The position numbers and the translations under genes were made by a program. Below, piece by piece: positions 26,714 through 27,718 of a stretch of DNA of 64,000 nt (positions are counted from its first letter, which is position 1; each line of letters starts with the position of its first letter). Origin of the DNA: Dyella choica (GTDB lineage: Bacteria > Pseudomonadota > Gammaproteobacteria > Xanthomonadales > Rhodanobacteraceae); the NCBI RefSeq assembly GCF_003977665.1, contig NZ_RYYV01000001.1, forward strand, positions 496,001 through 560,000. The letters are read 5' to 3'. The notes beneath the pieces are model-generated. The model saw only the letters and a list, made by a program, of their open reading frames with translations, searched no databases and was not told the DNA's origin.

Positions 26714-26877
26714 GCTTAAGGATGGTCTGAAAAAGTCCGTCACGGACCTTTTCAGACGCGCCGCGTCCGGTACACGCCCGGACGCGGCTACGCCAAATCA
26801 AGCGCTTACGCGCCTGATTTGCGGCGGGCCGTCCCTGGCCCGCAGAAACTCTGAACTTATTCAGAGTTTCCTTAAGC
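26714..26877. repeat. 164-nt multi-hairpin element closed by a 9-bp inverted repeat
   Basis: GCTTAAGGA (26714-26722) and TCCTTAAGC (26869-26877) form perfect termini. Between them are five consecutive hairpins. H1 is 26725-26757 (14 bp, one mismatch, TCA loop). H2 is 26760-26788 (11 bp). H3 is 26794-26821 (7+4 bp, one mismatch). H4 is 26824-26843 (7 bp). H5 is 26846-26869 (10 bp). The A-C mismatches in H1 and H3 become G-U pairs in minus-strand RNA. No coding frame is credible here. It could be a MITE-like or BIME-like mobile repeat, or a structured RNA. It ends 19 nt before the next gene. Confidence 0.8.
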
Positions 26878-26896: not shown

Positions 26897-27652
26897 ATGG
26901 TCACTGCAAGCTTCCGTTTTTATGAAGAGTTGAACGATTTCCTTGCTCCGGCGCTGCGCCAGCGCGAGTTCCAGCGGCGCTGCGCGCGGGCGGCGACCAC
27001 CAAACACATGATCGAAGCGCTCGGCGTGCCGCACACGGAAGTCGAACTGGTACTGGTCAACGGCAAATCCACCGGCTTCAACCACCTTCTGTGCGACGGT
27101 GATCGCGTGGCGGTGTACCCCAAATTCGAAGCACTGGACATCACGCCGCTATTGCGCGTGCGTGCACGACCCTTGCGCATGACGCGCTTCGTGGCCGATG
27201 CACACTTGGGCGGCCTCGCGCATTTGTTGCGCATGTGCGGTTTCGACACGCTGTACGACAATCACTTCCAGGACGACCGCATCGTGGAAATATCGCTGCA
27301 GGAAGAGCGCATCATCCTCACCCGCGACCGGGAGCTGCTCAAGCGGCGCGAAGTCACGCACGGATGCTTTGTCCATGCGCTCAGCTCGCCGCAACAATTG
27401 CACGAAGTCGTCATGCGACTGGACCTGAGCGCCAGCGCTCGACCGTTCTCGCTATGCCTACAATGCAATGCCCCTCTGCAGGATATCGACGCGGCAGCCG
27501 TGCGGCTACGGCTGCCGGCGCACGTGCTGGAACACCAGGATCGCTTCGTCACTTGCAGCCATTGCCATCGGGTGTATTGGAAAGGTTCGCATTGGCGGCA
27601 TATGCGCGATTTTTTGCGGGCCAGCGCGGGCATCGACACGCCTGATGGGTAG
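26897..27652 (+). CDS. Mut7-C RNase-domain protein with N-terminal ubiquitin-like domain
   Basis: The 251-residue protein matches the Mut7-C family. The N-terminal part (about 1-85, MVTASFRFYEELNDFLAPAL to VNGKSTGFNHLLCDGDRVAVYP) looks like a ubiquitin/ThiS-type fold. The rest is a PIN-like Mut7-C domain with RFVADAHLGGLAHLLRMCGF, LTRDRELLKRR and a zinc-binding pair, CLQCNAPL and CSHCHRVYW. A role in RNA cleavage or processing is assumed for the family but little tested. An AGGAA ribosome-binding site precedes the ATG. The dense multi-hairpin element directly upstream is its probable 5' region. Confidence 0.85.
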   Translation: MVTASFRFYEELNDFLAPALRQREFQRRCARAATTKHMIEALGVPHTEVELVLVNGKSTGFNHLLCDGDRVAVYPKFEALDITPLLRVRARPLRMTRFVADAHLGGLAHLLRMCGFDTLYDNHFQDDRIVEISLQEERIILTRDRELLKRREVTHGCFVHALSSPQQLHEVVMRLDLSASARPFSLCLQCNAPLQDIDAAAVRLRLPAHVLEHQDRFVTCSHCHRVYWKGSHWRHMRDFLRASAGIDTPDG

Positions 27653-27662
27653 TCTCTTGTCC

Positions 27663-27718
27663 GCTCCCCTGCCTGTAGGGCCTGCCCCGGACTCGATCTG
27701 GGGCAGGCGTAGGGGAGC
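27663..27718. repeat. two-tier inverted repeat between the Mut7-C gene and accA
   Basis: GCTCCCCT (27663-27670) pairs with AGGGGAGC (27711-27718), enclosing CCTGCCCC/GGGGCAGG (27681-27688/27700-27707). It follows the Mut7-C stop by 10 nt and may end that transcript, but no T-run follows. An accA -10 candidate, TATACT, is at 27784-27789. Confidence 0.55.

Follow-up and report, generated by a model that had tools for sequence, protein, structure and literature searches.

A 152-bp five-hairpin repeat upstream of a Mut7-C gene in Dyella choica, very probably a non-autonomous transposable element with IS5-type ends

The locus and the parts of the element

The DNA analyzed here (the window) is a stretch of 64,000 nucleotides from Dyella choica (Gammaproteobacteria, Lysobacterales, Rhodanobacteraceae), in which an interval at 26714-26877 lies immediately upstream of a Mut7-C gene. 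In a preliminary description, made from the letters alone, this interval was reported as five hairpins in a row within a closing repeat, and both the sequence and its folding bear this out. The minimum free energy was -100.2 kcal/mol on the plus strand, compared with an average of -51.6 for shuffled sequences (z -12.2), and -108.7 kcal/mol on the minus strand (z -12.5); on neither strand were any of 200 shuffles as good. The 9-bp terminal repeat given in that description (GCTTAAGGA/TCCTTAAGC) is likewise present, but it is a composite of a palindromic duplicated TTAA, the GGA/TCC ends of the element, and chance GC. These ends (GGA...TCC) were placed by aligning 38 copies, 23 from the same genome, three from G012, and 12 from G039, a genome of another family in the same order. 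So delimited, the element is 152 bp long, occurs in many copies, and holds no transposase gene. The features of the locus are listed below.

26716-26719: target-site duplication TTAA (YTAR), left copy
26720-26871, plus strand: putative mobile element proper, GGATGG...GTTTCC, 152 bp (from the 38 aligned copies and the duplicated targets)
26720-26738, plus strand: left terminal inverted repeat GGATGGTCTGAAAAAGTCC, apparently of IS5 type (the related element of G039 matches IS5 ends)
26725-26757, plus strand: hairpin H1, 15 pairs including one A-C mismatch (folding of both strands, alignment of copies); its 5' arm holds most of the left terminal repeat
26760-26788, plus strand: hairpin H2, 11 pairs (two-sided changes in 7 of the 11 among 38 copies)
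26794-26821, plus strand: hairpin H3, 12 pairs including one A-C mismatch (two-sided changes in 7 of the 12)
26824-26843, plus strand: hairpin H4, 7 pairs with a six-base loop, in which most of the 38 copies retain TCC
26845-26870, plus strand: hairpin H5, 11 pairs (folding, alignment of copies); its 3' arm holds most of the right terminal repeat
26854-26871, minus strand: right terminal inverted repeat, GGAAACTCTGAATAAGTT when read inward on the minus strand (from the G039 right end compared with IS ends)
26872-26875: target-site duplication TTAA, right copy
26897-27652, plus strand: Ub-Mut7C and Mut7-C gene, outside the element (Pfam PF01927, PF14451)

The closest named record for the Mut7-C gene was found in Dyella flagellata (NZ_BSOA01000047.1), where the gene order matches at 84-86% identity. 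Among the best 80 of 565 relatives of the Mut7-C protein, a single one, at 86%, was from Dyella; the others mostly carried betaproteobacterial names (best 75%), a hint that the gene may have been gained horizontally. Just downstream of it, a GC-rich inverted repeat (GCCTGCCCC...GGGGCAGGC, 27680-27708) is perhaps a terminator or another repeat.

Copies, insertion sites and the relation to IS5

Further copies, target-site duplications, and covarying stems had been proposed in the preliminary description as ways of distinguishing a mobile repeat from an RNA, and the first two were readily found. In the D. choica genome, a search in which 40 of 58 candidates were scored returned 55 local matches, many being parts or palindromic echoes. 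Counted by row, 23 places, spread over 15 contigs, were near full length, at 71-100% identity; the rest included fragments. When 16 genomes of the genus were searched at the sequence level, matches were obtained only in the D. choica genome (the 55), in G012 (six rows, three places of which are full or near-full copies), and in G002 (one fragment). G039 contains at least 40 near-full copies, 40 having been scored of 256 loose candidates.

The copies are flanked by a 4-bp repeat, which is TTAA at the window copy and CTAG, TTAG, CTAA, or the like at others. Perfect flanking tetramers were present at 18 of the 38 aligned copies, and at least three of four positions matched at 29 of 38. By source, perfect duplications were found at 11 of 26 copies of D. 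choica and G012 and at 7 of 12 copies of G039; the 15 of 26 D. choica and G012 copies that lack one count against a mobile element. A larger G039 set, which overlaps the 12, comprised 60 distinct copies, from which one was dropped for its 24 differences and five as the ends of tandem arrays. Of the 54 single copies that remained, 39 had perfect duplications, 29 of them being CTAG, TTAG, or CTAA. Insertions of IS5 in Escherichia coli have been reported with a YTAR duplication, according to PMC10359306. Six D. choica copies (L007, L008, L011, L012, L016, and L020) carry a common 6-nt shortening of H1. Because three of these (L007, L008, and L012) have perfect target duplications, full pairing of H1 may not be needed for insertion.

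Empty sites were examined by joining the flanks of seven copies and comparing them with other Dyella genomes. Five of the seven sites were continuous in at least one of these genomes (all five in G012, two of them also in G002 or G014), and for the remaining two, L002 and L007, no spanning match to the joined flanks was found in the other Dyella genomes. The L003 site was the only clean case: there, G012 is continuous through GTAACCCAA and retains the target tetramer. None of the other four had an element-sized insert, but the spacer had diverged around the target, and the tetramer itself was not kept. One of the five is the window site, which in D. flagellata, the one relative examined there, is continuous between the histidine kinase and Mut7-C genes, with no element between them.

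The ends of the element resemble IS5 ends. In the D. choica genome, a draft of 68 contigs, a search for an IS5 transposase gene returned no match to PF05598 and two fragments matching PF01609, for which matching ends were not found; because this assembly is a draft, the IS could be missing from it. In G039, there were 13 hits of a DUF772 protein in 344-aa frames, and this protein was identified as an IS5 transposase (NF033581, 325 bits compared with a cut-off of 140). Relatives of the G039 IS on plasmids, at 66-68% DNA identity, are labelled ISPa16-like. The IS ends came out as GGAGGGTCTGAACAAGTC when copy L115 was compared with the five others in the same orientation; L115, the copy whose flanks were read, has CTAA on either side. 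The first 18-19 bp of the G039 element were 94-95% identical to both IS5 ends, and its right end was 88% identical to the IS ends over the last 17 bp. Within the IS, the best match to the element was 22 bp at 82% (E 0.02), which is as good as the right-end match, and the rest were weaker. From these matches, the ends of the element appear to be IS5 ends, and its inside is not evidently IS sequence. In G039, then, the terminal repeats are in common with a resident IS5; in the Dyella draft no IS5 was found.

Two other classes of short repeats were considered. REP, REPIN, and BIME elements, which are moved by RAYT and are known in the same order, are also palindromic and numerous; as described in PMC2817692, REP elements start with a GT(A/G)G head beside a short palindrome. 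The present element has no such head and ends in GGA/TCC beside YTAR duplications, and a REP/REPIN assignment was rejected. MITEs derived from IS630 have a TA target. Those named in PMC2817692 (Correia, RUP) are likewise short, non-autonomous repeats with terminal inverted repeats, but they belong with a different transposase family; we set them apart by description.

Taken together, the YTAR duplications, the empty sites in Dyella relatives, and the 18-19 bp of end sequence in common with an IS5 element of another family are the basis on which the element is assigned as a MITE, an assignment made by sequence comparison. We consider it very probable that the interval at 26714-26877 arose by insertion of a single copy of a MITE, a non-autonomous transposable element, whose ends are of IS5 type; the preliminary description, which had listed a non-autonomous mobile repeat among its possibilities, was right on this point. 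An IS5-family DDE transposase supplied in trans would recognize the ends and insert the element at YTAR tetranucleotides, duplicating them. Because YTAR contains TAA and TAG, insertion would often fall at stop codons. No IS5 was found in the D. choica genome, so its copies may have been mobilized, also in trans, by an IS5 that is now lost or unassembled.

Concerted change of the hairpin arms

When the structure of the window copy was imposed on the 38 aligned copies, 89.2% of 2074 cells were paired, 24 of 56 pairs showed two-sided change, and the covariation score was 0.255, compared with 0.116 after shuffling. H1 was the weakest helix (80% of cells paired), in part from poor alignment of the G039 copies. 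In 27 diverse cassettes consisting of H2-H4, the score was 0.402 compared with 0.166, and 22 of 30 pairs had changed on both sides. The covarying stems anticipated in the preliminary description do therefore exist; the covariation, however, is among the copies of a mobile family and between its subfamilies, not in a single-copy RNA. The H3 of the window copy fits the IHF consensus WATCAANNNNTTR, but in other copies both halves of this match vary in step with the facing arm; it was accordingly read as part of a palindrome and rejected as an IHF site.

The copies of G039 allowed this change to be followed among close relatives. Thirty copies gave 34 private substitutions at 126 paired sites and 10 at 26 unpaired ones; as these numbers were too small for decay to be told from constraint, the set was enlarged to 59 copies. 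Their mean identity to the consensus is about 96%, and yet the arms change together. Of the distinct variants, 17 were two-sided, and 14 of those were Watson-Crick, whereas 500 shuffles gave 3.4 on average and never more than 7. The foot of H2 occurs as seven coexisting arm alleles, all fully Watson-Crick, that differ at adjacent pairs. Both observations are what would be expected if the covariation were purely mutational, with template switching between the arms keeping them complementary and no selection acting on structure; replication template switching between hairpin arms is described in PMC8794818. As a sufficient explanation, we regard this as possible but rather doubtful, since variation is lower at stem sites than at unpaired ones (0.75 compared with 1.25 distinct variants per site, and 0.032 compared with 0.067 substitutions per site and copy), and since the hairpins persist in distant relatives despite frequent one-sided changes (70 distinct one-sided variants in the 59 copies). 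The arm data fit template switching together with the weeding out of unpaired copies, and do not tell the two apart. Each terminal repeat is folded back into its own hairpin (H1 and H5), with H2-H4 as the interior. The arms are kept complementary by concerted change; in the proposed mechanism, this would come from template switching and selection on copies that still transpose. The hairpins most likely serve the element itself, either by making a 152-bp unit so compact that its ends can meet or by rendering insertions near genes harmless.

Strong covariation, both in the 38 copies and in the 27 cassettes, would also be expected of a structured RNA under selection, whether a host noncoding RNA or the target of an RNA-binding protein, and possibly on the minus strand. 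On that strand, H3 has a GNRA-like loop, and the loop of H4, CANGGANG, resembles CsrA/RsmA sites; its A, G, G, and A are kept in at least 90% of the 38 copies. The A-C mismatches of H1 and H3, from which minus-strand RNA had been suggested, are real (positions 15 and 29 in H1 and 82 and 95 in H3 of the 152-bp core) and become G-U on the minus strand. Raw wobble cells in the 38 rows also lean that way (90 A.C compared with 52 G.T), an excess that shared ancestry can produce. The hint does not clearly generalize, however, when distinct variants are counted: in the 26 rows of D. choica and G012, there were 29 G.T variants (plus-strand wobbles) and 34 A.C variants (minus-strand wobbles).

Orientation was assessed at 50 loci (20 in D. 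choica, some of them partial, and 30 in G039), using gene calls from a codon-score script rather than annotation. Of the 47 copies with a predicted gene on both sides, 15 were co-directional with both genes, 7 were opposed to both, and 25 were mixed, so that no clear bias was evident. Furthermore, at a fixed site between two genes (described below), the plus strand is the coding strand. A search of the element against Rfam gave no family over its gathering cut-off; the best match, the gyrA RNA (RF01740), reached 33.1 bits compared with a cut-off of 45, its two adjacent hairpins aligning to H2-H1 on the minus strand mainly by structure, and it was rejected. With sub-threshold Rfam matches, no clear bias in orientation, and mixed wobble evidence, the structured noncoding RNA of the preliminary description is unsupported at the window site, as is the minus-strand reading, and we judge selection for an RNA to be distinctly unlikely. 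Least credible is the further suggestion that the element serves as a 5' control region for Mut7-C: it does end 25 nt before the start codon and has the same orientation as the gene, but near-full copies lie at 22 other places in the genome, and D. flagellata keeps the same gene order without the element.

Distribution, a possibly fixed copy and significance

The reach of the MITE was examined with a covariance model of H2-H4 only, built from the 27 cassettes, which were taken from loci found by BLAST. The model matched 62 of 299 genomes of the order (E <= 0.001), in 29 of 85 genera and six families, and 26 of 369 genomes of the class (E <= 0.0001), which represent 23 of 272 genera and include two from the family of D. 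choica itself. Because strict filters were applied and at most 14 (order) or 11 (class) candidates were scored per genome, copy counts are lower bounds, and the E-values are rough. No match was obtained in plasmids with three element queries, in phages with one, or in viral contigs with two exact patterns. Near an element copy in G023, a SAM riboswitch was matched at L023 291-430 (65.2 bits, cut-off 44.4).

Sequences flanking the model matches were compared at 43 loci, namely 26 of 30 order loci (the D. choica genome, G039, and two contig ends being set aside) and 17 of 18 new class loci (less one contig end). Directly upstream, a hairpin with a score of 8 or more was found at 27 of 43 loci, and directly downstream at 24 of 43, compared with 4 of 516 control segments. 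In the class loci alone, such a hairpin lay upstream at 6 of 17 and downstream at 9 of 17. Folding energies of the flanks (means -19.9 and -17.2, control -14.2 with a standard deviation of 4.9) separated them weakly, G+C-rich controls folding too, and the helix-length test was used instead. H1 and H5 thus recur beside model matches well above control. The end types of these relatives include GGAAGCTCTGAATAAGTC, CAGGATGTTGAAAAAG, GAGCTTGTGAAGAAAA, and GGCAACACTGAACAAGTC; judged by sequence and predicted folding, many Gammaproteobacteria have elements of this five-hairpin plan whose ends differ.

Three of the model matches fell at one site, between genes assigned by eye to a chemotaxis receptor and a STAS protein, and this site was followed across the family. 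A search for the downstream gene matched 76 of 147 family genomes, and the spacer was examined in 70 of the 76. In seven of these 70 loci, from three genera (G308, G078, G340, G036, G287, G338, and G207), the spacer is 142-150 nt long and contains H1-H4 without H5. The coordinates of these copies are given here together with those of the tandem arrays described below.

Copies without H5 at the receptor-like/STAS-like site: L305 1354-1500; L314 1352-1500; L328 1351-1500; L309 1801-1944; L319 1804-1947; L345 358-500; L354 359-500
Tandem arrays: L067 1160-1819 (minus strand); L077 371-776; G039:C1:213732-214137, 3008590-3008995, and 5721021-5721553

At the same site, G030 has an H4-like hairpin only, and the remaining genomes have short spacers of 7-56 nt (measured by script or by eye), including 9-13 nt in 11 Dyella genomes. 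Because other sequence, of 127-177 nt, fills the spacer at L316, L330, and L350, the site may simply attract repeats. In the seven resident copies, 90.3% of cells were paired, 12 of 39 pairs had changed on both sides, and the covariation score was 0.283 compared with 0.166, although further pair types were not above shuffles (143 of 500). H4 was paired in all seven without two-sided change, H3 failed in part (74% paired), and wobbles were G.T in 14 cases and A.C in 8. The resident copy is thus a lead for domestication, not proof of it, and its presence is scattered among genera. In G039, the arrays consist of H1-H4 units with a 127-bp period, ending in one full copy with H5. Because the same junction occurs at several sites, each multimer appears to be moved or spread as a whole.

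These findings permit a broader, tentative proposal, to which we give somewhat less than even credence: that the element belongs to a class-wide, previously undescribed superfamily of five-hairpin MITEs, in which the H2-H4 cassette would be the conserved module, independent of the terminal repeats. Its folds would be kept by concerted arm change, its terminal repeats would be of several kinds, and it would form tandem multimers and have been fixed at least once as the spacer between the receptor-like and STAS-like genes. No description of the family was found in the open-access literature on MITEs in Dyella, Xanthomonadales, IS5, and Gammaproteobacteria, a scope outside which most subscription papers fall.

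By kind, the element is an IS5-type MITE, and it is unusual by its anatomy and its reach. Like IS5-family insertion sequences and their MITEs, it is flanked by a duplicated YTAR target, and about 18 bp at its ends are in common with an IS5 element. In contrast to them, it has inside a conserved set of hairpins that is not evidently derived by deletion from the IS found, ends that are folded into hairpins, and a plan that extends across the class. The usual view of a MITE is that it derives from an IS by deletion and is decaying; here, IS5 ends appear to enclose a different, foldable inside that is recognizable across a bacterial class. The family would thus provide a natural data set for asking whether selection or template switching accounts for compensated hairpin changes, and what role secondary structure plays in a transposon too short for its ends to be bent together easily. 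It also serves as a warning against taking strong covariation in intergenic DNA as proof of a host RNA gene.
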